Origin: Klenkia sp. PcliD-1-E
GTDB taxonomy: Bacteria; Actinomycetota; Actinomycetes; Mycobacteriales; Geodermatophilaceae
Reading direction: 5' to 3'
NCBI RefSeq assembly: GCF_024124375.1
Contig: NZ_JAMXRZ010000015.1
Coordinates: 1-49,890 of the forward strand
Length of the DNA stretch: 49,890 nucleotides
The notes beneath the pieces are model-generated. The model was not told the DNA's origin. It did not search any database and worked only from the letters and a program-made list of their open reading frames with translations. A program made the translations under genes and the position numbers. Shown here piece by piece: positions 24,574 through 48,088 of this stretch (position 1 is the stretch's first letter; every line of letters begins with the position of its first letter).

Positions 24574-24602
24574 CGGGACAGTCTGCCCGCCGGGGTCTCC
24601 CC

Positions 24603-24662
24603 GGTATTGGAAGCTCTACCCGACCGTCGCGCCCCGATCGGCAGGGTGGAGCTTCCGATACC
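24603..24662. repeat. 19-bp inverted repeat in the AGPS/glpD divergent region
   Basis: GGTATTGGAAGCTCTACCC at 24603-24621 pairs with 24644-24662 at 17 of 19 positions across a 22-base spacer. It lies 30 bases before the flavoprotein start and 25 before the glpD GTG. It may be an operator pair, a 5' leader hairpin or a copy of a palindromic repeat; the sequence alone does not decide. Confidence 0.8.
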
Positions 24663-24686
24663 TGGGCGTTGGGGGAGGGTGGGGTC

Positions 24687-26201
24687 GTGATCGGCACCCG
24701 CCTCGACCCCGCCCGCCGCGCCCGCGATCTGGACCGGCTCGGGCGCGCGGTCGACGTCCTGGTGGTCGGGGGCGGGGTGACCGGCGCCGGGGTGGCCCTG
24801 GACGCGGCCTCCCGGGGCCTGTCGGTGCTGCTGTGCGAGCGCACCGACCTGGCGGCCGGGACGAGCCGGTGGTCCTCGAAGCTGGTGCACGGCGGGCTGC
24901 GCTACCTGGCGCACGGCGAGGTCGGGTTGGCCCGGGAGTCCGCCCGCGAGCGCGCCGTCCTCATGGGGGTGACGGCGCCGCACCTGGTCGCGCCGCTGCC
25001 ATTCTGCGTGCCCGCGGTCGGCGGCACCGACGTCGCCGCCGTCGCCGGGGTGGGCGGGGTGCTCGGGGACGCCCTCCGCGCATCGGTGCGCGGCGGGCGC
25101 GGGTCGCTGCCCCGGGCCCGGCGGGTGGGGGCCGACCAGGTCGCGGCGTGGCTGCCGGCGGTGCGGCCGGGGCGCGGGGGCGTGGCCTTCTGGGACGGCC
25201 AGCTCGTCGACGACGCCCGGCTGGTCGTGGCGCTGGCCCGCACCGCCGCGGGGTACGGCGCGTCGGTGCTCACCGGGGCGTCGGTGCTCGGCGTCGACGG
25301 TCGGACCGCGGTCGTCGAGGTCGAGGGACGCCGGGTCGAGGTCGAGGCCGGGGTGGTGGTCAACGCGGCGGGTGTGTGGTCGGCCGGGCTGGACGACGGC
25401 GTCTCGCTGGTGCCCTCGCGCGGGTCGCACCTGGTCGTCCGCGCGGAGCGACTGGGCCACCCCACCGCGGCGCTGACCGTGCCGCTGCCCGGCTCCCGCT
25501 CCCGCTACGTCTTCGCGCTCCCGCAGGACACCGGGCTGGTGTTCCTCGGCATCACCGACGAGCCGGTCGAGGGCCCGGTGCCCGACGAGGACCCACAGCC
25601 CTCGGCGGCCGAGGTCGAGCAGCTGCTGGGCACGGTCAACCGGGTGCTCGCCGACCCGCTGACCACCGACGACGTGGTGGGCGCCTACGCCGGGCTGCGC
25701 CCGCTGGTGCTGCCCTCGGACGCCGTCGCCGGCGCCACCGCGGACCTCTCCCGCACGCACCTGCTGCACCGGTCGGGCTCGGTGCTGACCGTGGTGGGCG
25801 GGAAGCTGACCACCTACCGGGCGATGGCCGAGGAGACGGTGGACGCCGCCCTCGACGTGCTGGGCCGGGGTGCCCGCCGGTCGGTGACGGCCCGGCTCCC
25901 CCTGGTCGGGGCCGCGCCGCGCCGGGTGCTGGACGGCGTGGACGCCCCGGCCCGGCTGGTCGCCCGGTACGGCACGGAGGCGCCGGCGGTGCACGCGCTG
26001 GGGGGTGAGCCGCTGGTGGCCGGCCGGCCGGAGACGGTGGGGGAGCTGCGCTTCGCCGTCCGGGCGGAGGGCGCCCGCACGGTGGCCGACCTGCTCGACC
26101 GCCGGACGAGGGTGGGTCTGGTGCCGGCCGACCGGGAGGCGGCGGCCGCCCGCGCGCAGGAGACCCTGGCCGACGAGCTCAGCCGCCGCCCCGGGCGCTG
26201 A
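24687..26201 (+). CDS. glpD: Glycerol-3-phosphate dehydrogenase (FAD)
   Basis: A 504-residue membrane-associated flavoenzyme that oxidises sn-glycerol 3-phosphate to DHAP and feeds electrons to quinone. The Rossmann motif VLVVGGGVTGAGVALDAASR is at residues 25-44, followed by the family signature SSKLVHGGLRYLAHGEV; FLGITDEP and GGKLTTYRAMAEE mark the C-terminal half. GTG start with a purine-rich GGGGGAGGG upstream. Its product is the precursor of the substrate of an AGPS, which fits the divergent neighbour; I recall glpD/flavoprotein adjacency in mycobacteria too. The stop overlaps the first base pairs of a palindromic repeat. Confidence 0.93.
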   Translation: MIGTRLDPARRARDLDRLGRAVDVLVVGGGVTGAGVALDAASRGLSVLLCERTDLAAGTSRWSSKLVHGGLRYLAHGEVGLARESARERAVLMGVTAPHLVAPLPFCVPAVGGTDVAAVAGVGGVLGDALRASVRGGRGSLPRARRVGADQVAAWLPAVRPGRGGVAFWDGQLVDDARLVVALARTAAGYGASVLTGASVLGVDGRTAVVEVEGRRVEVEAGVVVNAAGVWSAGLDDGVSLVPSRGSHLVVRAERLGHPTAALTVPLPGSRSRYVFALPQDTGLVFLGITDEPVEGPVPDEDPQPSAAEVEQLLGTVNRVLADPLTTDDVVGAYAGLRPLVLPSDAVAGATADLSRTHLLHRSGSVLTVVGGKLTTYRAMAEETVDAALDVLGRGARRSVTARLPLVGAAPRRVLDGVDAPARLVARYGTEAPAVHALGGEPLVAGRPETVGELRFAVRAEGARTVADLLDRRTRVGLVPADREAAAARAQETLADELSRRPGR

Positions 26202-26266
26202 TCATGGGGTTGGTGCCACGGACACGCCGGGGGCCGGCGCGGCGCGTGGCGACAACCCCATGATCA
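26199..26266. repeat. Long inverted repeat joining glpD and amidohydrolase ends
   Basis: Two 22-base arms, 26199-26220 and 26245-26266, match at 20 positions around a 24-base spacer; the outer end is TGATCATGGGGTTG. It contains both the glpD stop (26199-26201) and, on the other strand, the amidohydrolase stop (26202-26204), and it encodes the odd last residues of the latter. It may act as a bidirectional terminator. Confidence 0.8.
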
Positions 26267-36038: not shown

Positions 36039-37787
36039 GTGCCCGTGGAGACCGACGTCCTGGTGGTGGGGACCGGCCCCGCCGGTGCCTCCGCCGCGCT
36101 GTTCCTGGCCACCTACGGCACCCGCGTCGTCGTCGTCACCAAGTACTCGCGGCTGTCCCAGGACCCGCGGGCGCACATCACCAACCAGCGGGCGCTGGAG
36201 ACCATGCGCGACATGGGTGTCGAGGACACCCTCATGGCGCTGGCCACCCCCTGGGAGCTGATGGGGACGACGACCTTCTGCACCTCGCTGGCCGGCGAGG
36301 AGCTGGGCCGCATCCCGAGCTGGGGCACCGACCCCGCCCGGCACGCCGACTACCAGCTGGCCAGCCCCTGCACGATGCTCGACGCCCCGCAGACGATCAC
36401 CGAGCCGGTGATGGTCAAGGCCGCCCAGGACCGCGGAGCGACGGTGCGCTTCGACACCGAGTACCTGCGGCACGTGCAGGACGACGAGGGCGTCACCACC
36501 ACCGTCCGCGACCGGTTGAGCGGCCTGGAGTACGAGATCCGCTCGAAGTACCTGGTCGGCGCCGACGGCGCGCGGTCCAAGGTCGCCGCCGACCTCGAGC
36601 TGCCCTACGAGGGCCCCGGCGCGGTGGGCGGTGCGCTGGGCATCGTGTTCAAGGCCGACCTCACCCACCTGGTCGCGCACCGGCCCTCGGTCCTGTACTG
36701 GATGCTGCAGCCGGGCGCGGAGAAGGAGGGCGTCGGCCTCGGAGTCCTCCGGATGATCAAGCCCTGGACCGAGTGGATGCTCATGTGGGGCTACGCGGTC
36801 GCCGACGGGCCGCCGGAGCTGACCGACGAGTTCGTCCGCGAGCTGGCCGTCGGGCTGGTCGGCCGGGACGACTTCGAGATGGAGGTGCTGTCCGGCTCGC
36901 CGTGGACGGTCAACCACCACTTCGCCACCACGATCGCCCGGGGCAGGGTGTTCTGCGCCGGCGACGCGGTGCACCGGCACCCGCCGACCAACGGCCTGGG
37001 TTCCAACACCTCCATCCAGGACAGCTACAACCTGGCCTGGAAGCTGGCGCACGTGATCGACGGAGCCGCGGGTCCTGCCCTGCTGGAGTCCTACGACGCC
37101 GAGCGGGCTCCGATCGCGCGCCAGGTCGTCGAGCGGGCGAACCAGTCGATCGCCGACACCGGCCGGATCATGGCCGCCCTGGAGCTCACCGACACCACCG
37201 ACACCGAGGCCCTCGAGCGCCAGCTCGCGCTGCGCCGGGCGCCGGGGCCCGAGGGGGACAAGGTGCGCGCCGCCGTGCGGGAGGCCATCGCCTACAAGGC
37301 CTACGAGTTCGACGCGCACGGCGTGGAGCACAACCAGCGCTACGCCTCGTCCGCCGTCGTCCCCGACGGCACCGACATGCCGCCCTACCGCCGCGACCAC
37401 CAGCTCTACGCCCAGCCCACCACCTGGCCCGGCGCCAAGCTGCCGCACGCCTGGGTCACCCGCGGCGGCCGGGAGGTCTCCACCCTGGACCTGGTCGGGA
37501 AGGGCAGGTTCGCCGTCGTCACCGGGGTCGGCGGCGAGGCATGGCTGGACGCCGCCGCGTCGCTGGGCGCGGAGCGCGGCCTGGACATCACGCCGGTCGC
37601 CATCGGGCCGGGCCTGCCCTACGACGACCCCTACGGCACCTGGGCCGACCTCCGCGAGATCGCCGACGGCGGCTGCCTGCTGGTCCGGCCCGACTGCTAC
37701 GTCGCCGCCCGGCACCTCGAGGCACCCGGGGACGGCGCGCAGGAGTGGCTGGCCGGTGCGCTGGACCAGGTGCTGGGGCGCCGCTGA
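36039..37787 (+). CDS. TfdB-like FAD monooxygenase (phenol/chlorophenol hydroxylase)
   Basis: A 582-residue class A flavoprotein hydroxylase. ETDVLVVGTGPAGASAALFL is the dinucleotide fold at the start; AHITNQRALE, LASPCTMLDAPQT and FCAGDAVHRHPPTNGLGSNT lead to the second FAD motif; a thioredoxin-like C-terminal domain begins near WPGAKLPHAW. The similarity to 2,4-dichlorophenol 6-monooxygenase (TfdB) is extensive along the whole length, so ring hydroxylation of a phenol with NADPH and oxygen is expected; chlorinated substrates are possible but unproven. The GTG at 36039 has GAGGAG 7 bases upstream; GTG 36000 is an alternative. The 88-bp palindromic element begins 5 bases past the stop. Confidence 0.88.
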   Translation: MPVETDVLVVGTGPAGASAALFLATYGTRVVVVTKYSRLSQDPRAHITNQRALETMRDMGVEDTLMALATPWELMGTTTFCTSLAGEELGRIPSWGTDPARHADYQLASPCTMLDAPQTITEPVMVKAAQDRGATVRFDTEYLRHVQDDEGVTTTVRDRLSGLEYEIRSKYLVGADGARSKVAADLELPYEGPGAVGGALGIVFKADLTHLVAHRPSVLYWMLQPGAEKEGVGLGVLRMIKPWTEWMLMWGYAVADGPPELTDEFVRELAVGLVGRDDFEMEVLSGSPWTVNHHFATTIARGRVFCAGDAVHRHPPTNGLGSNTSIQDSYNLAWKLAHVIDGAAGPALLESYDAERAPIARQVVERANQSIADTGRIMAALELTDTTDTEALERQLALRRAPGPEGDKVRAAVREAIAYKAYEFDAHGVEHNQRYASSAVVPDGTDMPPYRRDHQLYAQPTTWPGAKLPHAWVTRGGREVSTLDLVGKGRFAVVTGVGGEAWLDAAASLGAERGLDITPVAIGPGLPYDDPYGTWADLREIADGGCLLVRPDCYVAARHLEAPGDGAQEWLAGALDQVLGRR

Positions 37788-37791
37788 CCGG

Positions 37792-37879
37792 CGTGGATCA
37801 GGTGGGACGACGAATGTGCATCCTCAGCCACCGACGTCGGCGGCGGAGGATGCACGCTGGTCGTCCCACCTGATCCACG
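37792..37879 (-). repeat. 88-bp palindromic element, copy A
   Basis: Two 34-base arms (37792-37825 and 37846-37879) pair except for a central 4-base block, giving a 20-bp stem, a 4x4 internal loop and a 10-bp stem. The 20-base loop has the palindrome CCGACGTCGG (37831-37840). Read on the minus strand, its first arm is identical over all 34 bases to the first arm of copy B at 45911. It sits 4 bases after a stop codon and touches a truncated gene on its other side. Confidence 0.92.
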
Positions 37880-38120
37880 GTCGTCGCCCACGGTCTCGGG
37901 CGACGTCCAGGTGCTCATGTCGACGATCAGCGCGTCGTCGCCGGGACCCCGGACGGCGGTGGCGTCGCCGTCCTCGGTCTGCAGTCGCCGGACGAAGCCC
38001 GGGGCGGCGTCGCCGGCCGCGTCGACCGGCTCGAGCAGGTCGACGGGACCGGCCAACCGGGCCGAGGTCAGTGGATCGACGGGCAGCGCGATCGAGCTGG
38101 GCGAGGTGGTGACCGGTCAC
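37880..38120 (-). pseudogene. Decayed DUF3291-family gene, frameshifted and truncated
   Basis: Reading leftward from a GTG at 38120 gives VTGHHLAQLD, then the homologous reading continues in another frame as SIALPVDPLTSARLAG, PVDLLEPVDAAGDAAPGFVR and RLQTEDGDATAVRGPGDDAL, ending IVDMSTWTSPETVGD. This order (HLAQL, DAAPGFVwRLQ, DDxLIVxMSxW) is that of DUF3291 proteins, which normally continue for about 50 more residues with a conserved FVY...H...RR.EWF segment that is missing. A frameshift near residue 10 and the abrupt end exactly at the palindromic element show that it is a remnant. The stretch up to HelD (38121-38207) holds the palindromes GTGACCGGTCAC (38109-38120) and GGTGATCACC (38140-38149) and no gene. 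Confidence 0.65.
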
Positions 38121-38207
38121 GGCGCGGACCCTGGCGCGCGGTGATCACCGTTCGGCAGGTTCTGCGACTACCTTCGACGGGCCCGCGCACTAGGAGGAGA
38201 CCTGCAC

Positions 38208-40493
38208 GTGTCGAGCACCGTCCCGAACCTCGCCGAGGAGCAGGAGCACGTCACCGGCCTCTACGCCCGGTTGGACGCTGCCCGCGAGCTGGCGGTCACC
38301 CGCCGGCAGCAGGCGATCTCGGCGCCGCTGGTGGACAACCCGCAGGCGATGGGGGAGAAGGAGGCCGCGGTCCGGTTCCACGGCACCCGGATCGTGCAGC
38401 TGGACGCCGCCGAGGCCGGGCTGGTGCTGGGCCGGCTGGACCGGGAGTCCTCCCCGCAGCCGCTCTACGTCGGGCGCACCGGCCTGCCCGCCGACGACGC
38501 CGGCGGTGACCCGGCCCTGGTGGACTGGCGCGCCCCGGCCAGCCGGCCCTTCTACACCGCCACCCCGTTCCGGCCCGAGGGCATCACCCGGCGCCGGCAC
38601 ATCCGCACCCTGGGCCGGACGGTCACCGGCATCGACGACGAGGTGCTGGTGCTGGCCGAGGGCGAGGAGGCCGACGACCGCGGGCTGACCGGCGAGGCGG
38701 CGCTGCTGCGCGCGCTGACCGCCGAGCGGACCGGCCGGATGACCGACATCGTGCGGACCATCCAGGCCGAGCAGGACGCGATCATCCGCTCGGACGCCCG
38801 CGGCATCCTGGTCGTGCAGGGCGGCCCGGGCACCGGCAAGACCGCGGTGGCGCTGCACCGGGCGGCCTACCTGCTCTACACCCACCGCGACCGGCTGGCC
38901 CGCAGCGGCCTGCTCGTCGTCGGCCCCACCCCGACCTTCCTGCGCTACATCGCCGACGTGCTGCCGGCCCTCGGCGAGACCGGCGTGGTCATGGCCGGCC
39001 TGGGCGACCTGCGGCCGGGGCTGTCGACCACGCTGGTCGACGAGCCGGCCGTCGCCGAGGTCAAGGGGCGCCTCGCCATGGCCGAGGTGGTCGCGACCGC
39101 CGTGAAGGACCGGCAGGGCGTGCTGCGCGGCACCCGCGAGCTGGTCGTCGACCGGGAGCGCATCCGGCTCCGCGCGGGTGACGTCGCGAAGGTGCGCACC
39201 CAGGCGCGGCGGGCGTCGCGGCTGCACAACCTGGCCCGCCCCGCCTTCTACCGGGGCCTGGTCGACCTGCTGGCCCAGCGGGTGGCCGACCGGCTGGGGT
39301 CCGACGTCCGTGGCGGGGAGAACCTGCTCGACGCCGAGGACCGCCGCGCGCTGCGCCGGGAGATCGCCGGGGAGCCGGCGGTGGTGGACCTGGTCGAGGA
39401 GCTGTGGCCGCTGCTCACGCCCGAGGACCTGCTGCGGGACCTGTTCGCCTCCCCGGAGCGGCTGGCCCGGGCCGCGAAGGGGCTGTCCGAGGCCGACCGC
39501 GCGCTGCTGGTGCGCGACGCCGACGCGCCGTGGACGGTGTCCGACGTCCCGCTGCTCGAGGAGGCCGACGAGCTGCTCGGGGTCGACGACTCCGCGGAGC
39601 GGGCCGCCGCGGCGCGCCGGCGGCAGGCGGGGCTGGACGAGGCGCAGCGGGTCCTGGACCTGCTGCACGGGTCCCGGTCGCACGACGCGGACGACGACGA
39701 GGAGTCCGAGGAGCTGATGGCCGGCGACCTGCTGGACGCCGAGGGCCTGGCCGCCCGCGCCGACGAGGCCGACTACCGCTCCACCGCCGAGCGGGCCGCC
39801 GCCGACCGCACCTGGACCTTCGGGCACGTGGTCGTGGACGAGGCGCAGGAGCTGTCGGCGATGGCCTGGCGGGTGCTGGCCCGCAAGTGCCCGACGCTGT
39901 CGATGACGGTGGTCGGGGACCTGGCGCAGACCGGGACGCTCGGCGGGGCGGACAGCTGGGCCGAGGTGCTCACCCCGCACGCCCGCACCCAGTGGCGCCA
40001 GGCGGTGCTCACGGTCAACTACCGGACGCCGACCGAGATCATGGAGGTCGCCGCCGACGTGCTCGCGGCGTCCGGGTCGTCGCTGGAGGCGCCCCGCTCG
40101 GTGCGCAGCAGCGGTGAGCCGCCGACCGCCGAGCGGGTGGCCTCGGCCGACCTGATGGACCGGGTCGCCGAGGTGACGGCGGACCTGGCCGGCAAGGGGG
40201 GGACGGCGGCGGTCGTCGTGCCGCCGTCGCTGTTCGACGCCGCCGTGGCCGCGCTGCCCGAAGCAACCGCGGGGGCGGACGCCGACTCCTCGGCCGGGCC
40301 GGTGCTGCTGCGCCCGGCGGAGGCCAAGGGGCTGGAGTTCGACTCGGTGGTGCTGGTGGAGCCGGCGGCGGTGCTGGCCGAGGGCGTGCGCGGGGACTCC
40401 GACCTCTACGTCGCGCTGACCCGCGCCACGCAACGGCTCGCCGTCCTGCACGCGCAGGAGCTGCCCGACAGCATGTCCCGCCTCACCGACTGA
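38208..40493 (+). CDS. helR: HelD/HelR-type RNA polymerase recycling ATPase
   Basis: A 761-residue superfamily 1 (UvrD-like) motor. The Walker A motif VVQGGPGTGKTAVALH lies near residue 205; VVVDEAQELS is Walker B; TVVGDLAQTGTLGG, VNYRTPTEIME, EAKGLEFDSVVLVEP and YVALTRATQRL are the later helicase motifs. An N-terminal coiled-coil arm (EEQEHVTGLYARLD...) precedes VDWRAPASRPFYTATP, the hallmark of HelD proteins, which pry open stalled RNA polymerase to release nucleic acids. Actinobacterial HelR versions also remove rifamycins. AGGAGGAG lies ahead of the GTG start. I see no rifamycin-associated element upstream. Confidence 0.9.
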   Translation: MSSTVPNLAEEQEHVTGLYARLDAARELAVTRRQQAISAPLVDNPQAMGEKEAAVRFHGTRIVQLDAAEAGLVLGRLDRESSPQPLYVGRTGLPADDAGGDPALVDWRAPASRPFYTATPFRPEGITRRRHIRTLGRTVTGIDDEVLVLAEGEEADDRGLTGEAALLRALTAERTGRMTDIVRTIQAEQDAIIRSDARGILVVQGGPGTGKTAVALHRAAYLLYTHRDRLARSGLLVVGPTPTFLRYIADVLPALGETGVVMAGLGDLRPGLSTTLVDEPAVAEVKGRLAMAEVVATAVKDRQGVLRGTRELVVDRERIRLRAGDVAKVRTQARRASRLHNLARPAFYRGLVDLLAQRVADRLGSDVRGGENLLDAEDRRALRREIAGEPAVVDLVEELWPLLTPEDLLRDLFASPERLARAAKGLSEADRALLVRDADAPWTVSDVPLLEEADELLGVDDSAERAAAARRRQAGLDEAQRVLDLLHGSRSHDADDDEESEELMAGDLLDAEGLAARADEADYRSTAERAAADRTWTFGHVVVDEAQELSAMAWRVLARKCPTLSMTVVGDLAQTGTLGGADSWAEVLTPHARTQWRQAVLTVNYRTPTEIMEVAADVLAASGSSLEAPRSVRSSGEPPTAERVASADLMDRVAEVTADLAGKGGTAAVVVPPSLFDAAVAALPEATAGADADSSAGPVLLRPAEAKGLEFDSVVLVEPAAVLAEGVRGDSDLYVALTRATQRLAVLHAQELPDSMSRLTD

Positions 40494-40541
40494 GCGCCCC
40501 CCGCCCCCCACCGCAGCGTTGATCAGGGAGGTTGATCGAAC

Positions 40542-40597
40542 TCCGTCCTCCCGCGCGAGATCTGGTGCAGGAGGACGGACTCCGGTGCAGGAGGACG
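40542..40597. repeat. Hairpin plus 20-base direct repeats between helR and kynA
   Basis: TCCGTCCTCC (40542-40551) pairs with GGAGGACGGA (40570-40579) over an 18-base loop, a probable shared terminator of the convergent genes. GGTGCAGGAGGACG is repeated at 40564-40577 and 40584-40597 with a 20-base period. Confidence 0.65.
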
Positions 40598-40604
40598 CCT
40601 CCGG

Positions 40605-41468
40605 TCAGCGGGCGGAGGCGCCGATGCCGGTGCGCACCTCGTAGAGCTCGGGGAAGAACGTGAGGTCCAGGGCGCGGCGGAGGAAGGCCGCACCCGAGGA
40701 GCCGCCGGTGCCGGTGGTGAAGCCGATGGTGCGCTGGACCGTGCGCAGGTGGCGGAAGCGCCAGAACTGGACGGCGTCCTCGATGTCGACGAGGTCCTCG
40801 CAGGTGGCGTAGGCGTCCCAGTGCGCGTCGGTGTCGTCGTAGACGCGGCGGACCACGGGGACCAGCTCGGGGGCGAACACCCAGGCCTTCGTGACCTCGC
40901 GGTGCAGCAGCTGCTCGGGGACGGCGTGGCCGTGCCGGGCGAGGTGGGCGAGGAAGGCGTCGTAGACGGTGGGCTCGGCGAGCAGGTCGGCCAGCACTGC
41001 GCGGGCCGTGGGGTCGGCGTCGAAGACCTCGAGCATGGCCGCGTTCTTGTTGCCGAGGATGAACTCGACGGCCCGGTACTGGTGGGACTGGAAGCCCGAG
41101 GAGCTGCCGAGCGAGCCGCGGAACTCGGCGTACTCGCTCGGGGTCAGGGTGGCCAGCACCGACCACTGCTCGGCCAGGGTCTTGAAGATGTGCTTGACCC
41201 GGGCCAGGCCCTTGCGCGCTCGAGCGGGGTCGTCGGCGTCGAGCTGGTCACGGACCGCGCGCAGCTCGTGCAGGACCAGCTTGAACCACAGCTCGGTGGT
41301 CTGGTGCTGGATGATGAACAGCAGCTCGTCGTGGTGCTCGGGCCGGCTGACCGGGTGCTGGGCGGACAGCAGGCGGTCCAGGTCGAGGTAGCCGCCGTAG
41401 GTCATGGTGTCGCGCAGGTCGGTGCGGATGCCTGCCTCGAGGGGGCGTTCGCCCGCGTGCTCGCTCAT
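40605..41468 (-). CDS. kynA: Tryptophan 2,3-dioxygenase
   Basis: A 287-residue haem enzyme that opens the indole ring of tryptophan to N-formylkynurenine. Counting from the ATG at 41468, the active-site residues fall exactly where they do in Xanthomonas TDO: F51 and H55 in FIIQHQTTELWFK, R117, S124, haem ligand H240 in RFRH and T254 in TTGTGGS, supporting this start over the GTG at 41483. CACGAT lies 6 bases upstream. No kynureninase or formamidase gene is adjacent. The EEP-hydrolase gene is 33 bases upstream on the same strand. Confidence 0.96.
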   Translation of the reverse strand: MSEHAGERPLEAGIRTDLRDTMTYGGYLDLDRLLSAQHPVSRPEHHDELLFIIQHQTTELWFKLVLHELRAVRDQLDADDPARARKGLARVKHIFKTLAEQWSVLATLTPSEYAEFRGSLGSSSGFQSHQYRAVEFILGNKNAAMLEVFDADPTARAVLADLLAEPTVYDAFLAHLARHGHAVPEQLLHREVTKAWVFAPELVPVVRRVYDDTDAHWDAYATCEDLVDIEDAVQFWRFRHLRTVQRTIGFTTGTGGSSGAAFLRRALDLTFFPELYEVRTGIGASAR

Positions 41469-41501
41469 CCCCGCATCGTGCACCCTGCCTGGTCGCGGCC
41501 C

Positions 41502-42296
41502 TCAGAGGTCGAGCACCAGGGGCCGGTGGTCGGAGACGACCGGATCGGCGACCACCTCGAAGCGCCGGACCGCGTCGACGTCGGAGACGAGCGCGTAGCT
41601 CGCGTGCCGCACCGCCCTGGGGTAGAGGTGGGTGCGGGTGTCGGCCGTGCCGACGAGGTCGCGCAGGCCGGTGCCGGCCAGCACGGCGAAGGTCTCCGAG
41701 TCCGGCAGCAGGTTGAGGTCACCCACCAGGACGCCGAGGTCGCCGGGCCGGCGGACCCGCTCGACGACCTCGGCGATGCGCTGCGCCTGCGACCGTCGCA
41801 GGTCGGTGTCGCCCTTGCCGCTGCGCTCGCGGACGCCGTGGGTGTGCACCACGACGACGGGCCGGCCGCCGTCCGGGTCGACGACGCGCACGGCCTGCGC
41901 CAGGCGCGGCCGGCCCTCGGGCGGCCACTCGTCGTGCGCGGCGAACCCGCCGACGACGTGCTCCGCGTGGAGCCCGACCACCGGGAGCCCGTGGCGGACG
42001 AACACGGCCTGGCCGAACAGCTGACGGTGCCGGGTGCCGTCCTCGTCGACCACCGGCCCGGTGTCGAAGGTGACGAAGTGCGCCTCGTGGCCGGGCAGCA
42101 CGGCGTGGACGTCGGCGAGCAGGTCGGAGCGCTGGCGCAGCGTGCGGTCGCCGTCGGCGTAGGTCACCCAGCCGTGGTGCGTCGCCGAGCTGGTGACCTC
42201 CTGCAGGCACAGCACGTCGGCCCCGACGGCGGGGAGCCAGGCGAGCAGGGCGTCCAGCTCGACCCCGCACCAGGCGTTGAGGCTGACGACGCGCAC
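41502..42296 (-). CDS. Endonuclease/exonuclease/phosphatase family protein
   Basis: A 264-residue EEP-superfamily hydrolase. Core motifs are SLNAWC at the first strand, CLQEVTSS (metal glutamate), VVVHTHG, GDLNLLPDSETF (DxN) and the terminal SDHRPLVLDL (catalytic DH). These residues make a metal-dependent phosphodiesterase or phosphatase active site, but the substrate (nucleic acid, phospholipid or inositol phosphate) cannot be told. No signal peptide, so cytoplasmic. GTG start, with TACGTT (complement of 42305-42310) 8 bases upstream as a candidate leaderless -10. Confidence 0.86.
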   Translation of the reverse strand: MRVVSLNAWCGVELDALLAWLPAVGADVLCLQEVTSSATHHGWVTYADGDRTLRQRSDLLADVHAVLPGHEAHFVTFDTGPVVDEDGTRHRQLFGQAVFVRHGLPVVGLHAEHVVGGFAAHDEWPPEGRPRLAQAVRVVDPDGGRPVVVVHTHGVRERSGKGDTDLRRSQAQRIAEVVERVRRPGDLGVLVGDLNLLPDSETFAVLAGTGLRDLVGTADTRTHLYPRAVRHASYALVSDVDAVRRFEVVADPVVSDHRPLVLDL

Positions 42297-42378
42297 GGCC
42301 GCCGAACGTAGCGTCGCCCGCCGGCCCCAGGACGAGCGGGCCCCCGCGGGGACGTCAGCCGTCGATGCAAGGTGCCGC

Positions 42379-44112
42379 TCAGAACGGGGCGGGGTCCGCG
42401 ACCGGGTCGTGCGGTGGCGGTGGCGGGTGCCCGAGGTCGAGGACGCGACCCTCGCCCGGTGGTCGGGTGACGACGGTGCCGCCGCCGGGCGTGGTGACGT
42501 GCAGGGTGCCGTCGGCGTCGAGGGCGAAGCGCCAGGCCCCGGCGAAGGTCTTCAGCCGGTGGTGCCGCCGGCAGAGCAGCACCAGGTTGCGCACGGAGGT
42601 GCGCCCGCCGGCCGCCGGGTCGCGGTGGTCGTAGGGGACGACGTGGTCGGCGTCGGTGCGCAAAGCGACCTGGCGGCAACCGGGGAAGCGGCAGTGCCGG
42701 TCGCGGGCGCGCAGGTACCGGTACTGGGCGGCCGTGGGGGTGTAGCCGACGGCCGGTGGTGGCGGCCCGACGCCGCGTCCGGCCCGTGCCGCGGCGAGCA
42801 GCTCCTCCGGGGTGGCGACGGCGAGCAGCCGCCCGTGCTCGCCGGTGATCGTGAACGCCAGCTCGCCGCCGCCGGGGTGGGTGAGACCGAGCGCGTCGAT
42901 GCGCCGCAGCAGCTCCTGCACCGCGGCCGGCGACACCGGCAGCCCGCCCACGTCGCCGACCTGCGCGCCGCCGCCGGGCGCACCTGTCCCCACGGGCTCA
43001 CCGGCGGGCGCGCCTGTCCCCATGGGCTCGCCGGCGGGCGCACCTGTCCCGTCGTCGGCCGGGGGCGGATCAGTGTCCCGCGCTCGTTCGGCTCCCTGGC
43101 CCGAGGCCTGGGCTGCCGCCTGCTCCGTGGCCCCGGCTACTCGGGTGTCTGCGGCTCGCGCCTCGGCGTCGGCGAGGAGGTCACCGATGCCGGGGACGAG
43201 CAGGTCGGCGAGGTCGGCGTTGATGGTCAGGTGCGCGATGGCCGGGTCGAGCTTCTCCCACGGCCGGGTCAGCAGGGTGACCACCAGGGCCGTGCGGATC
43301 TGGCCGGCCGGGCGGTCGTCCCCCTCGGCCTGGAGCTTCCGGACGAACGCGTCGAGCTGGGCCTTGACCAGCTGCGCGTCGGCGGCGTCCAGGTGGGTCG
43401 CGCGCAGGTCGGCCAACCCGTCGCCGGTGCCCTGCACCCGGACGTCGGCCTCCCGCTTGCGCAGCGCCCTGCGCCGATCGGCAGCCTCGGGGTCGGCGGC
43501 GACCAGGGCGGCGTCGACGCGTTCGCGCAGCGTGGTGGGCGGACAACCGGCGGCGGCCCACTCGACCCCGCGTGCCGCGACCCGGTCGACCACCGCGTGG
43601 TCGACCGGGCCGCCCCACGACGCGGCCTGGTAGCGCAGCGCCCGCACCAGCACCTTCGCCCGGGTCTCGTCGATGCGGCCGTCGGCCAGCGCGTGCCACA
43701 CCACGGGCAGCTGCCGGACCAGCACCAGGTCGTCGTCGACCAGGTAGCGGGCCGAAGGCACCGACATCCGCAGCAGGACCGCGACCTCCTCGGGCAGGAA
43801 ATCATCGGCGGCCTGCAGCGACGGGTCCTGTTCGTCGGCCTCGGGGCGGGTGTCGGTGCGGGTACCGGGTGCGAAGGGCAACGGGTGCTGCGCCCCGAGG
43901 GCGGCCTTGCGCTCCACGAGCCCGGCCCGGTAGGCCGCCAACGACGCCATCTGCCGGTGGACCGAGGCGAGCTCGGCGTCGAGGTCGGCGCCCTCCAGAC
44001 CGGCGGACACGGCGAGGCCGGTCAACCGCGGCAGGACGGTCGGGCCCTCGGTGCGGTCCACGGCGAGGCGCGGGGTGATCTCCACCCAGAACCGCTGCGC
44101 CGTCGCCGTCAT
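42379..44112 (-). CDS. DUF222/HNH endonuclease-domain protein
   Basis: A 577-residue member of the actinobacterial DUF222-HNH (13E12 repeat) family. The N-terminal 300 residues are the helical DUF222 region. A low-complexity linker with decapeptide repeats follows, and the C-terminal HNH nuclease domain reads RDRHCRFPGCRQVALRTDAD, then HVVPYDH and NLVLLCRRHHRLK, with the cysteine pairs and histidines of a zinc-supported HNH fold. Such genes are multi-copy in many actinobacteria; their biological role is unsettled. The ATG at 44112 (MTATAQRFW) is preferred to one at 44175. The upstream stretch 44113-44255 contains no gene. Confidence 0.88.
   Translation of the reverse strand: MTATAQRFWVEITPRLAVDRTEGPTVLPRLTGLAVSAGLEGADLDAELASVHRQMASLAAYRAGLVERKAALGAQHPLPFAPGTRTDTRPEADEQDPSLQAADDFLPEEVAVLLRMSVPSARYLVDDDLVLVRQLPVVWHALADGRIDETRAKVLVRALRYQAASWGGPVDHAVVDRVAARGVEWAAAGCPPTTLRERVDAALVAADPEAADRRRALRKREADVRVQGTGDGLADLRATHLDAADAQLVKAQLDAFVRKLQAEGDDRPAGQIRTALVVTLLTRPWEKLDPAIAHLTINADLADLLVPGIGDLLADAEARAADTRVAGATEQAAAQASGQGAERARDTDPPPADDGTGAPAGEPMGTGAPAGEPVGTGAPGGGAQVGDVGGLPVSPAAVQELLRRIDALGLTHPGGGELAFTITGEHGRLLAVATPEELLAAARAGRGVGPPPPAVGYTPTAAQYRYLRARDRHCRFPGCRQVALRTDADHVVPYDHRDPAAGGRTSVRNLVLLCRRHHRLKTFAGAWRFALDADGTLHVTTPGGGTVVTRPPGEGRVLDLGHPPPPPHDPVADPAPF
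42976..43050 (-). repeat. 30-bp in-frame tandem repeats in the DUF222/HNH linker
   Basis: Two and a half copies of a 30-base unit (units begin at 42976, 43006 and 43036) encode GTGAPAGEPM, GTGAPAGEPV and GTGAPGGG. The codon-multiple period keeps the frame, so copy number can vary without breaking the protein. Confidence 0.88.
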
Positions 44113-44255
44113 GGACCCATTCGACCAGAGGGGTACGACATTCCCGGGCTCGTCGACAGGCCGCTGAGCAGGCAATTCTTCGGAGTCGGGTCAGCGCGGA
44201 GCGTGACGTCAGGGGGCGGCGGGTCGAGAGGGGGTCGGCCACGACGGCGGGGACG

Positions 44256-45107
44256 TCAGCCAACGGCGGCGCCGGTGACGCGGAGGAAGTCCAGCTTCTC
44301 CGCCGCCGGCGACCCGGCGGCCACGGTCATGGCCACGATCTGCAGCTCCGAGCCGCTGACGGTGAACACGTCGCAGTCGACCTCCAGCGCGCCGACCGTC
44401 GGGTGCTCGAGCACCTTCCGCTGCGACAGGTGCTCCCCGACCACCCCGGTCGCCCACAGCCGCTCGAACTCCTCGCTGCTGGCCCGCAGCCGGCCGATCA
44501 GCGCACGCAGGCCCGGGTCGTCGTGGTGCCGGCCCTGCGCCCGGCGCAGCCCCGCGACCAACGACACCCGGAAGGCCGCACCGCCGTCGGCGTACACGGC
44601 CCGGCCGATGCGCTCCTCGGCGAAGAGGTCCTCGTGGAAGGTCTGCACGACCAGGTTCCGTTCCCAGGCGCTGCGCCCGGCCGGCTCGCCGAACAGCGCC
44701 GCCCAGGTCGGGCTCCACAGCAGGATGTCCCAGGACGCGGTGAAGACCGCGATCGGGACGTCGCCCATCCGGGTCACCATCCGCTGCACCCCGGCCGGCA
44801 CGTGCGTGCTCACCAGTGCGTCCCCGGGCGGTCGCAGCCCGGCCAGGGTGTACAGGTGGTCCCGCTCGGCCCGGTCCAGCTGCAGCGCCCGGCCCAGCGC
44901 GGCCACCACCTGCGCGGACGGCGTCCGGGCGCGGCCCTGCTCCAGCCGGACGACGTAGTCCACGCTCACCCCCGCGAGCGCCGCCAGCTCCTCCCGCCGC
45001 AGCCCGGCCGCCCGGCGCACACCCCCGGTCGCCGTCCCCACGTCGGCGGGGGACAGCCGGTCCCGCCACGACCGCAGCAACGCCCCGAGCTCACCGTGGT
45101 CCGTCAC
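44256..45107 (-). CDS. XRE/MmyB-type transcription regulator
   Basis: A 283-residue regulator with an N-terminal XRE helix-turn-helix (RREELAALAGVSVDYVVRLE followed by QGRARTPSAQVVAALGRAL, about residues 35-75) and a C-terminal MmyB-like ligand-binding domain containing VFTASWDILLWSPTWAALFG and an HPTVGALEVDCDVF segment. This family usually controls a neighbouring oxidoreductase; the divergent SDR gene is the obvious target. GTG at 45107 is favoured by family length and by GACACT 7 bases upstream. Confidence 0.88.
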   Translation of the reverse strand: MTDHGELGALLRSWRDRLSPADVGTATGGVRRAAGLRREELAALAGVSVDYVVRLEQGRARTPSAQVVAALGRALQLDRAERDHLYTLAGLRPPGDALVSTHVPAGVQRMVTRMGDVPIAVFTASWDILLWSPTWAALFGEPAGRSAWERNLVVQTFHEDLFAEERIGRAVYADGGAAFRVSLVAGLRRAQGRHHDDPGLRALIGRLRASSEEFERLWATGVVGEHLSQRKVLEHPTVGALEVDCDVFTVSGSELQIVAMTVAAGSPAAEKLDFLRVTGAAVG

Positions 45108-45137
45108 GCACCCCAGTGTCGTCCGGTCCGCACGCCC

Positions 45138-45165
45138 CAGCCTGGTACCGGCACTCCACAGGCTG
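45138..45165. promoter_or_regulatory. Inverted repeat between the MmyB-type regulator and SDR genes
   Basis: CAGCCTG (45138-45144) and CAGGCTG (45159-45165) form a perfect 7-bp dyad with a 14-base spacer, midway in the 104-base divergent region. It is the best candidate operator for the regulator. Confidence 0.45.
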
Positions 45166-45211
45166 CGCCGGGCCACGCGCGACCACCCGCCGCGGGCGCA
45201 GGGTGGACACC

Positions 45212-45904
45212 ATGACCACGACACTCATCACCGGCGGCAACAAGGGCCTGGGCCGCGAGACCGCCCGCCGCCTCCTGGCCGAGGGACACACCGTCTGGAT
45301 CGGGGCCCGCGACGAGACCCGCGGCCGGCAGGCCGCCGACGAGCTCGGCGCGCGCTTCGTCCAGCTCGACGTCACCGACGACGCCTCCGTCGCCGCCGCA
45401 GCCGCCACCGTCGCCGAGCAGGGCGGGCTCGACGTCCTGGTGAACAACGCCGGCATCACCGGCACGCACGCCGACCCGGCCGAGCTCACCGGCGCCGACG
45501 CGCTCGCCGTCCTGGACACCAACGTGGCCGGTGCGGTCCGGACGACGACCGCCTTCCTGCCGCTGCTCCGGGACTCGGCCGCCCCGGCGATCATCAACGT
45601 GACCAGCGGTCTGGGCTCCTTCGCCGCGGTGCACGACACCGACCGCGTCGAGTCCACCGTCGTCGCGCCGCTGTACACCGCGTCGAAGTCCGCGCTGACC
45701 ATGCTCACCGTGCAGTACGCCAAGGCCCTCCCCGGCATCCGGGTCAACGCCGCCGACCCCGGCTACACGGCCACCGACCTGAACGGGCACAGCGGACCGC
45801 AGACGGTCACCGAGGGCACCGACGCCGTCGTCGCGCTCGCCCTGCAGGGGGCCGGCGGCCCCACCGGCACGTTCACCGACCGCTCGGGCACCGCACCGTT
45901 CTGA
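45212..45904 (+). CDS. Short-chain dehydrogenase/reductase
   Basis: A 230-residue classical SDR. The nucleotide-binding TGGNKGLG is at residues 7-14, NNAG near 86, the catalytic serine in NVTSGLGS and the YTASK pair near 150. Cofactor preference is probably NADP, judged from the basic residue after the second strand (GARDETRGR). Substrate unknown. It is paired divergently with an MmyB-type regulator, a common actinobacterial arrangement in which the regulator represses the reductase until a reactive compound is sensed. Palindromic copy B starts 7 bases past the stop. Confidence 0.9.
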   Translation: MTTTLITGGNKGLGRETARRLLAEGHTVWIGARDETRGRQAADELGARFVQLDVTDDASVAAAAATVAEQGGLDVLVNNAGITGTHADPAELTGADALAVLDTNVAGAVRTTTAFLPLLRDSAAPAIINVTSGLGSFAAVHDTDRVESTVVAPLYTASKSALTMLTVQYAKALPGIRVNAADPGYTATDLNGHSGPQTVTEGTDAVVALALQGAGGPTGTFTDRSGTAPF

Positions 45905-45910
45905 GGTCGG

Positions 45911-45998
45911 CGTGGATCAGGTGGGACGACCAGCGTGCATCCTCCCGGGCCGACGTCGGGTGCGGAGGATGCACAGTCGTCGTCCCACCTGGTCCACG
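45911..45998 (+). repeat. 88-bp palindromic element, copy B
   Basis: Arms 45911-45944 and 45965-45998 flank a 20-base loop with CCGACGTCGG at 45950-45959. Arm 1 equals the corresponding arm of copy A at all 34 positions and arm 2 differs at two. The same 4-base unpaired block splits each arm. It lies 6 bases after the SDR stop. Confidence 0.92.
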
Positions 45999-46063
45999 CT
46001 GCCGCCACCCGGCCGGGGGAGGGCGGCCGACGGCCGAGGCCGGGGCGCGCGACACTGATCACC

Positions 46064-48088
46064 ATGGGGTTCACCTCGGTCTACCGGCACGGGTTCGCGC
46101 GCGTCGCCGCGTGCACGCAGCGCACCGCGCTGGCCGACCCGCCGGCCAACGCCGACGCCGTCCTCCGCCAGGCCCGGGGCTGCCACGAGGACGGCGTCGC
46201 GGTCGCGGTGTTCCCCGAGCTGACCCTGTCCGGCTACTCGATCGAGGACCTGCTGCTGCAGGACCCGCTGCTGGACGCCGTCGAGGCCGCGCTCACCCAG
46301 GTGGTCGAGGGCTCCCGCGACCTGCTGCCGGTGCTCGTCGTCGGCGCGCCGCTGCGGCACCGCAACCGCGTCTACAACTGCGCCGTCGTGGTGCACCGCG
46401 GCCGGGTCCTCGGCGTCGCGCCCAAGTCCTACCTGCCGACCTACCGCGAGTTCTACGAGCGCCGCCAGCTCGCCCCCGGCGACGACCAGGCCGGTGGCAC
46501 GGTCCGCATCGGCGGCGACGACGTCCCCTTCGGCCCGGACCTGCTCTTCGCCGCCGCCGACGTCCCCGGTCTGGTGCTGCACGCCGAGGTCTGCGAGGAC
46601 ATGTGGGTGCCCGTCCCGCCCAGCGCCGAGGCCGCACTCGCCGGCGCCACGGTGCTGGTCAACCTGTCCGGTTCGCCGATCACCGTCGGCCGGGCCGAGG
46701 ACCGCCGGCTGCTCGTGCGGTCGGCGTCGAGCCGGTGCCTGGCCGCCTACGTCTACGCCGCCGCCGGGGAGGGCGAGTCCACCACCGACCTGTCCTGGGA
46801 CGGCCAGACCCTGGTCTACGAGAACGGCGTCCTGCTCGCCGAGACCGACCGCTTCCCCGACGGCGACCGTCGTGCCGTCGCCGACGTCGACCTCGACCTG
46901 CTGCGCCAGGAGCGCGCCCGGATGGGCACCTTCGACGACAACCGGCGGCACGTCGGGCCGTCCGTCCGCACCGTCGAGTTCACCCTCGACCCGCCGGAGG
47001 CGGACCTCGGCCTGCGCCGCGAGCTGGAGCGGTTCCCGTTCGTGCCCAGCGACGACGCCCGCCTCGAGCAGGACTGCTACGAGGCCTACAACATCCAGGT
47101 CGCCGGCCTGGCGCAGCGGCTGTCCGCCATCGGGGACCCGAAGGTGGTCATCGGGGTCAGCGGCGGGCTGGACTCCACCCACGCGCTCATCGTCGCGGCG
47201 CAGGTCATGGACAGAGCGGGGCGGCCCCGCAGCGACGTCCTGGCCTTCACCATGCCGGGGTTCGCCACCAGCGAGCACACCAAGGGCAACGCCTGGGCGC
47301 TCATGCGCTCCCTCGGCGTCACCGCCGCCGAGCTGGACATCCAGCCCACCGCCCGGCTGATGCTGCAGGAGATGGGCCACCCGGCCGGGGCCGGCGAGCC
47401 GGTCTACGACGTCACCTTCGAGAACGTGCAGGCGGGCCTGCGCACCGACTACCTGTTCCGGATCGCCAACCAGCGCGGCGGCATCGTGCTGGGCACCGGC
47501 GACCTGTCCGAGCTCGCGCTGGGCTGGGCCACCTACGGGGTCGGCGACCAGATGAGCCACTACAACGTCAACGGCGGCATCCCGAAGACCTTCATCCAGC
47601 ACCTCATCCGCTGGGTGATCGCCACCGGCCAGTTCGACGACGAGGTCGGCGCCACCCTGCAGTCGATCGTGGACACCGAGATCAGCCCCGAACTGGTGCC
47701 CGGCGAGACCGCGCAGTCCACCGAGGCCAGCGTCGGCCCCTACGCGCTGCAGGACTTCACCCTCTTCCACGTGCTGCGCTACGGCTTCCGGCCCTCCAAG
47801 ATCGCCTTCCTGGCCTGGCACGCCTGGCGGGACGCGGCCGCCGGGGACTGGCCGCACGCCTACCCCGAGGCCAAGCGGGTCGCCTACGACCTGCCCGAGA
47901 TCAAGCGCTGGCTCGAGGTGTTCTGCCAGCGCTTCTTCGGGTTCAGCCAGTTCAAGCGCTCGGCCCTGCCCAACGGGCCCAAGGTCAGCGCCGGCGGCTC
48001 GCTGTCCCCCCGCGGGGACTGGCGGGCACCGTCGGACGGCTCGGCCGCGCTCTGGTTGGCCGAGCTGCGCGCGGGCGTGCCCGGGTGA
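46064..48088 (+). CDS. nadE: Glutamine-dependent NAD synthetase
   Basis: A 674-residue enzyme catalysing the last step of NAD synthesis. The N-terminal glutaminase (nitrilase fold) has its triad at E52 (FPELTLSGYS), K121 (APKSYLPTYREF) and C177 (HAEVCEDMW). The C-terminal synthetase has the ATP loop GVSGGLDSTHAL and the ammonia-tunnel/NaAD site around GDLSELALGWATYGVGD. Length and residue positions match the M. tuberculosis enzyme. The start ATG has GACACT 7 bases upstream and no ribosome site. A double SRPBCC gene overlaps its stop as GTGA. Confidence 0.96.
   Translation: MGFTSVYRHGFARVAACTQRTALADPPANADAVLRQARGCHEDGVAVAVFPELTLSGYSIEDLLLQDPLLDAVEAALTQVVEGSRDLLPVLVVGAPLRHRNRVYNCAVVVHRGRVLGVAPKSYLPTYREFYERRQLAPGDDQAGGTVRIGGDDVPFGPDLLFAAADVPGLVLHAEVCEDMWVPVPPSAEAALAGATVLVNLSGSPITVGRAEDRRLLVRSASSRCLAAYVYAAAGEGESTTDLSWDGQTLVYENGVLLAETDRFPDGDRRAVADVDLDLLRQERARMGTFDDNRRHVGPSVRTVEFTLDPPEADLGLRRELERFPFVPSDDARLEQDCYEAYNIQVAGLAQRLSAIGDPKVVIGVSGGLDSTHALIVAAQVMDRAGRPRSDVLAFTMPGFATSEHTKGNAWALMRSLGVTAAELDIQPTARLMLQEMGHPAGAGEPVYDVTFENVQAGLRTDYLFRIANQRGGIVLGTGDLSELALGWATYGVGDQMSHYNVNGGIPKTFIQHLIRWVIATGQFDDEVGATLQSIVDTEISPELVPGETAQSTEASVGPYALQDFTLFHVLRYGFRPSKIAFLAWHAWRDAAAGDWPHAYPEAKRVAYDLPEIKRWLEVFCQRFFGFSQFKRSALPNGPKVSAGGSLSPRGDWRAPSDGSAALWLAELRAGVPG

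Follow-up and report, generated by a model that had tools for sequence, protein, structure and literature searches.

The window analysed here, a stretch of 49,890 nt corresponding to contig C66 of a Klenkia genome (Geodermatophilaceae, soil actinobacteria; 4.51 Mb in 262 contigs, 75% GC, hereafter G000), contains two long palindromes, each lying directly behind a protein-coding gene. They are members of a dispersed family, not a local duplication. The features around them are the following (no strand is assigned to the palindromes):

36039..37787, plus strand, FAD-binding aromatic-ring hydroxylase gene, stops just 5′ of copy 1
37789..37882, copy 1, 94-nt family unit (core 37792-37879, 88 bp)
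37816..37855, inner stem of copy 1, with GACGTC centre
37883..38120, minus strand, decayed remnant of a convergent DUF3291 gene, with copy 1 at its truncated end
38208..40493, plus strand, UvrD-like helicase gene, 3′ of copy 1
45203..45904, plus strand, short-chain dehydrogenase gene, stops just 5′ of copy 2
45908..46001, copy 2, 94-nt family unit (core 45911-45998)
45935..45974, inner stem of copy 2, with GACGTC centre
46064..48088, plus strand, NAD synthase gene with a CN-hydrolase domain, 3′ of copy 2

The initial annotation described two 88-bp palindromes with a 34-20-34 layout, located 4 and 6 bases after a stop codon. Both are real and their coordinates exact, and the stops end at 37787 and 45904. 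When the reverse complement of 37792-37879 is compared with 45911-45998, the first arms agree at 34/34 and the second arms at 32/34 positions, likewise as proposed; the loops agree at 14/20 and the whole cores at 80/88 positions. Because the element is nearly symmetric (39/44 and 36/44 half-positions are self-complementary in the two copies), the minus and plus labels given to them are of little weight. Their predicted folds reach -71 to -78 kcal/mol, with z-scores of about -10 to -11 relative to 200 dinucleotide shuffles, none of which (0/200) folds as well as either copy; both palindromes are far beyond chance. Aligned to relatives, the DUF3291 remnant shows 83% DNA identity on the right flank of copy 1, while its protein likeness is weak and limited to the start. 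The DUF3291 gene is intact in G082 (by gene call and Pfam) and has a counterpart in G076, the two genomes taken as closest to G000 by DNA identity.

A dispersed family on a rigid frame

A chance local duplication had been the expectation if G000 held these two copies only and relatives held none. Instead, copies are many and relatives carry them. BLAST with copy 2 gives 78 matches in G000, the exact inner-core pattern is found at 27 places (its reversed control at 0), and 39 copies were located in the fetched G000 loci with up to 4 substitutions in the core; the family size is a lower bound, 40 of 108 first-look candidates having been scored. Thirty-two copies align without gaps over 94 nt, with a mean column identity of 88%. 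The remaining ones (L032:9426, L032:10670, L053:11807, L058, L059, L060 and L061) were left out; their outer halves are more divergent. The consensus is roughly CGGCGTGGATCAG-STSSGACGAS-N4-GTGCATCCTC-CGCCACCGACGTCGGTGGCG-GAGGATGCAC-N4, followed by its mirror. In L032:9426-9519, L058, L060 and L053:11807-11900, one outer half is swapped for a GGTCCTCCGCCACC / TTTCCGCGGAAA-like module, and some element halves are mosaic among the G000 copies. The 4-base block that the initial annotation had called unpaired does occupy the same columns (24-27 and 68-71) throughout the gapless alignment, but it is not always unpaired: in 48 elements of family A (the stem-group labels A-I are our own) these columns are paired in 0.37 of cases, and thus mostly unpaired.

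The family consensus has no match at E 0.01 among plasmids and phages. Rfam gives no match at the gathering threshold in five sources and, at E up to 1, a single unrelated weak match elsewhere in the segment 36000-47000 of the window. Ten of 15 exact-core stretches lie outside Klenkia (in Pseudomonas, Mycobacterium, Methyloversatilis and others); these are presumed to be chance palindromes. Within the genus, K. terrae and K. soli have copies.

In G000, 47 elements share a rigid frame of 80 nt, GATCAG-N68-CTGATC. Of 51 Geodermatophilaceae genomes sampled, 38 contain this fixed frame; elsewhere in the order it turns up in 10 of 247 genomes (11 matches; reversed-pattern control, 0). Some matches are due to chance, one in G002 and that of G140 not being palindromic. 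A stricter pattern, TGGATCAG-N{62,90}-CTGATCCA, is found in 7/9 Klenkia genomes and 4/103 others of the family. Among the matches listed, all Klenkia ones span exactly 84 nt although 78-106 nt were permitted. The same span is seen in G086 and G090, which belong to another genus; the matches in G038 and G070 look like chance. The notion that G076 and G082 are without elements was rejected, since both have 0 matches to the TGGATCAG pattern yet 11 and 8, respectively, to the looser frame.

Each element consists of outer inverted arms anchored by GATCAG/CTGATC, two 4-5-nt spacers and a central stem. Types C and D have largely paired spacers; in most types the spacers are unpaired. In other genera the outer arms are often 17-nt dyads such as GATCAGGTGACCTGATC, with the spacing fixed, and a strand with palindromic arms can fold either as one long hairpin or as three small ones. 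Both folds are supported on 16 sequences, one per genome, hand-picked from the listings (5 from Klenkia and 11 others). The arms of these chosen sequences self-pair at 83-84% of cells; most family-A arms are no longer self-complementary.

That the arms are kept, and structure is therefore maintained, had been argued from the two copies in the window. The argument is not supported, as their likeness may be due to common descent; the evidence for maintenance comes from pairing between lineages. Over the 16 sequences, 71 double-change cells are found versus 23.4 ± 4.1 after shuffling and 9-16 after sliding. The search pattern itself dictates the outermost six pairs of the long hairpin, which have no evidential value. 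The inner helix is 93.8% paired, and 10 of its 16 pairs are doubly changed. An arm-swap control was based on 65 of 66 distinct frame elements (one L061 element was dropped), sorted by hand into eight stem groups, with 48 elements in A. Arms are 0.75-0.89 paired within an element, while 55 of the 56 cross-group values lie at 0.43-0.76 and one at 0.87. As judged from these alignments, compensatory change between lineages is established.

Gene ends and orthologous sites

The proximity to stop codons noted for the two copies extends to the family. Of 39 copies, 37 are intergenic (15 convergent, 21 tandem and 1 divergent) and 2 are called inside genes; this placement relies on a codon-model gene caller, is approximate, and counts the seven divergent-sequence copies. 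Coding sequence, as called, takes up about 92% of the loci. The single copy in a divergent gap compares with about 10 expected from intergenic length (P = 9e-5). The nearest stop codon is within 15 nt in 26/36 and within 35 nt in 33/36 cases. Among tandem copies, 18/21 are closer to the stop than to the next start. Their median distance from the stop is 14 nt, a clustering (permutation p = 0.0002) that selection against promoter damage may partly explain.

Elements of the family are not alone at such positions. Three surveys covered 436 kb of long G000 contigs, all of them carrying a copy or core-like match, 400 kb of G079, picked for its richness in elements, and the first 400 kb of the main contig of G083. 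They yielded 81 hairpins scoring at least 15, a few frame elements included; 3-base-block-shuffled sequence of 100 kb yielded 0 in each survey set. Other hairpins occupy the gene-end niche too: convergent and tandem gaps account for 66 of the 81, with 2 in divergent gaps, 12 inside genes and 1 at an edge. Besides plain GC hairpins, two further palindrome frames can be distinguished by our own grouping, GGCA-(self-palindrome)-...-TGCC and TGATCAT-...-ATGATCA, the latter 67-69 nt long with 8 distinct palindromes.

Two other palindromes are present in the window itself. A 68-nt palindrome built on another frame (TGATCATGGGG...CCCCATGATCA) occupies 26199-26266, beginning at two abutting stop codons and extending into the end of a minus-strand amidohydrolase gene; 7 more distinct palindromes of its frame were found in the fetched loci. 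At 24599-24666, an imperfect 68-nt palindrome of the GGAAGCTCTACC type is called between divergent genes and breaks the 3′-end rule.

The tails of the genes neighbouring 31/37 copies were sought in G076, G082 and G083. Forty-six site-by-species comparisons were read and 9 sites were followed in up to seven relatives, several of which are draft genomes. The site of copy 2 is empty in G076 and G082, where the stop codon runs straight into the downstream spacer, and is occupied in G083 and G078 by a palindrome of the same frame with a different stem. None of the seven relatives with aligned anchors has an element at the site of copy 1; in G077 an unrelated palindrome sits at this position, and in G076 and G082 the gap is occupied by a convergent gene (DUF3291 in G082). 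By rules of our own, 62 orthologous slots were classed (G082 21, G083 18, G078 7, G079 5, G080 5, G077 4 and G076 2). A frame element is present in 7 and some other long palindrome in 8; short hairpins account for 8 and short gaps for 27. The last 12 are longer gaps without hairpin, although #2 and #3 in G083, counted among these, hold decayed A copies missed by the rule. Shuffled slots attain the hairpin score in 0.00-0.01 of trials. Presence, absence and exchange of elements site by site are established.

At site #1, where G000 has an element, a hairpin scores at least 12 in G082, G083, G077, G079 and G080 and 11.5 in G078; at #4 and #29, G082 has an ordinary hairpin. Site #15 is compact in five relatives, with an element only in G000, and #17, #20 and #26 are compact in both G082 and G083. 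At least these four sites, compact in all relatives compared, look like gains in G000. Elements are present in more than one species at #2, #3, #27 and L055/L163, and on one flank at L056/L160, and have different stems between species at #6, #23 and #38. When the flanks of 11 A elements of G083 were compared with the G000 element loci, three appeared to be shared (L160 on one flank, L163 and L166). At the L167 site G000 is without an element, and the other G083 A elements have no match or a partial match among the fetched G000 loci.

In L033, L036, L041 and L049 (#5, #10, #15 and #23), the convergent genes of G082 finish in overlapping stops CTAG, which correspond to CTGA-element-TCAG in G000. 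CTAG may be an insertion target (CT^AG at these sites) or a deletion scar; the former is attractive but is not claimed, because the states are mixed over species. At #22 (L185 versus L048), G082 has a longer gap with an apparent small lysine-rich reading frame where G000 has the element.

Probable mobile hairpins as putative terminators

The initial annotation offered a mobile palindrome, a dedicated terminator or an RNA-end protector as alternatives. Its supporting appeal to arm likeness is the part that was not supported; the dispersed family resembling repetitive extragenic palindromic (REP) sequences or miniature inverted-repeat transposable elements (MITEs), the terminator-like placement and the lack of an Rfam match agree with the rest. 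The mobile palindrome and the terminator look like complementary aspects of a single phenomenon, not competing options. We favour, at a probability of roughly 0.6, mobile palindromes at gene ends similar to REPINs (REP doublets forming hairpins), whose hairpin would serve as a terminator without U-tract, often acting in both directions, or as a 3′-end protector. The element would be a dispersed non-coding unit of mobile type, moving among gene 3′ ends. It may be retained because its RNA would promptly form a very stable hairpin immediately 3′ of the stop codon. This hairpin could stop transcription, or obstruct polymerase or exonuclease, on behalf of one flanking gene or both. The element would thereby stand in for an ordinary terminator hairpin, two-way between convergent genes. 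From sequence we infer that the elements are transcribed, that they terminate transcription or protect ends, and that they are actively mobile. A terminator or 3′-end block is suggested by the strong stem 1-35 nt after the stop, in a phylum with reported U-less terminators, and is backed by the ordinary hairpins that relatives have at the same spot (#1, and #4 and #29 in G082). Mobility is backed by the apparent gain at #15 and by those at #17, #20 and #26, as judged against both G082 and G083.

Several observations weigh against this interpretation. First, the 12 nt after the element contain on average 1.25 T and at most 3 (n = 51), and a scan of 37000-46500 of the window found 0 intrinsic terminators; the elements are not canonical intrinsic terminators (a GC hairpin followed by a U-run), and it is the U-tract-less form, a strong hairpin soon after a stop codon, that they match. 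Second, within G000 no covariation above shuffles is detected in the 32 copies: paired cells amount to 86.5%, slightly below the 87.5% after shuffling, and double-change cells to 22 versus 29.9. The outer-arm pairs 14/81, 16/79, 17/78 and 23/72 are unpaired in 18, 18, 24 and 23 of the 32 copies, and columns 14, 16, 17 and 23 show mainly G/C variation, with the halves varying independently. In the arm-swap control, two cross values exceed the value within the left arm's group: H left with D right pairs at 0.87 versus 0.82 within H, and D left with E right at 0.76 versus 0.75 within D. Third, no mover was recognized. Y1_Tnp (PF01797), the REP-associated tyrosine transposase (RAYT) domain, is found in 0/9 Klenkia genomes and in 5/14 control genomes; no Pfam family is shared by more than 2 of the 77 neighbouring proteins; and no target duplication was seen by eye at empty sites, which were not tested systematically. 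Around a four-copy cluster on contig C201, no transposase was recognized by eye among the gene starts listed, and the one gene scanned gave only AbiEi_4, below the cut-off. Finally, sampling was confined to slots occupied in G000, a bias in favour of gains there, and the polarity of gain or loss is ambiguous at #5, #10 and #23. In G082, no hairpin scoring 12 is found at 16/21 slots (14 short gaps and 2 longer ones), so no element is essential there, and the 14 short gaps say that the element is useful rather than required.

A broader proposal is tentative and less likely than not: a guild of mobile terminators throughout the Geodermatophilaceae, made of RAYT-independent REPIN-like palindromes of at least three unrelated frames, which would displace ordinary terminators, and one another, from 3′ slots, with both arms being rewritten in step in each lineage.

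A purely selfish MITE- or REP-like element without function, which would insert widely but survive only in gene 3′ gaps since insertions into genes and promoters are lost, is the strongest competitor to useful mobile hairpins, though an unlikely one. It would account for the empty sites in close relatives, often at abutting or overlapping stops, and the high coding share of the loci leaves few safe places. However, neutral tandem copies would be expected to spread over the gap instead of clustering at the stop, stems stay paired across lineages, and other palindromes and ordinary hairpins fill the same slots. More improbable still are inherited terminators homogenized by gene conversion, with apparent mobility produced by loss and conversion: the slots occupied in more than one species, some with different stems, and the mosaic halves fit this idea, whereas the compact state of #15 in five other species and of 27/62 slots overall does not. 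Very improbably, each outer arm is a DNA-level dyad for a dimeric nucleoid, replication or repair protein and the RNA hairpin is incidental. The 17-nt dyad arms at fixed spacing in many elements of other genera speak for this; against it, arms and stems differ between species, and the model offers no ready explanation for the proximity to stop codons and near absence from divergent gaps.

If the mobile-terminator interpretation is true, terminators can spread as mobile parts, and a repeat that proves useful at its new site avoids the usual cost of insertion. The empty sites in close relatives and the site-by-site exchange would make re-termination by mobile hairpins directly testable, and the lack of RAYT in Klenkia raises the question of what moves the elements.

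Relation to known repeat and terminator systems

Among the titles and opening lines of abstracts listed from open-licence literature, no prior description of these elements was recognized, and prior publication is possible. Enteric REP sequences and bacterial interspersed mosaic elements are likewise extragenic palindromes 3′ of genes that are linked to mRNA ends; they differ in sequence, have a shorter unit and lack the rigid 80-nt frame. As far as the consulted parts of these sources go, the systematic stem-loop families of bacteria (PMC2267715) are the same general kind of object, and the high-GC Gram-positives named there are Corynebacterium and Mycobacterium, with no Geodermatophilaceae. 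The uptake-sequence families of Haemophilus, Neisseria and Pasteurella (PMC2267715) are also dispersed hairpin repeats suggested as terminators, but they are built from a short uptake word and not from an 80-nt frame with changing stems. The U-run-less intrinsic terminators of M. tuberculosis and Streptomyces (PMC8355165) are similarly hairpins near the stop codon with no U stretch, but in the part consulted are not presented as copies of a repeat family.

REPINs (PMC3116915) are nearest in kind. By the portion of that account considered, both are inverted pairs of small palindromes with a spacer, extragenic, of several sequence groups, and able to fold as a long hairpin or a "clover". The elements described here do show two inverted REP-like palindromes separated by a constant distance. 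In contrast to REPINs, they occur without RAYT/Y1 in 9/9 Klenkia genomes, their core is a stem with compensatory changes, and they hug stop codons where REPINs are described as randomly distributed in extragenic space (PMC3116915). With that transposase, the hallmark of REPINs, missing from all nine Klenkia genomes tested, the elements are better said to work like REPINs than to be REPINs.

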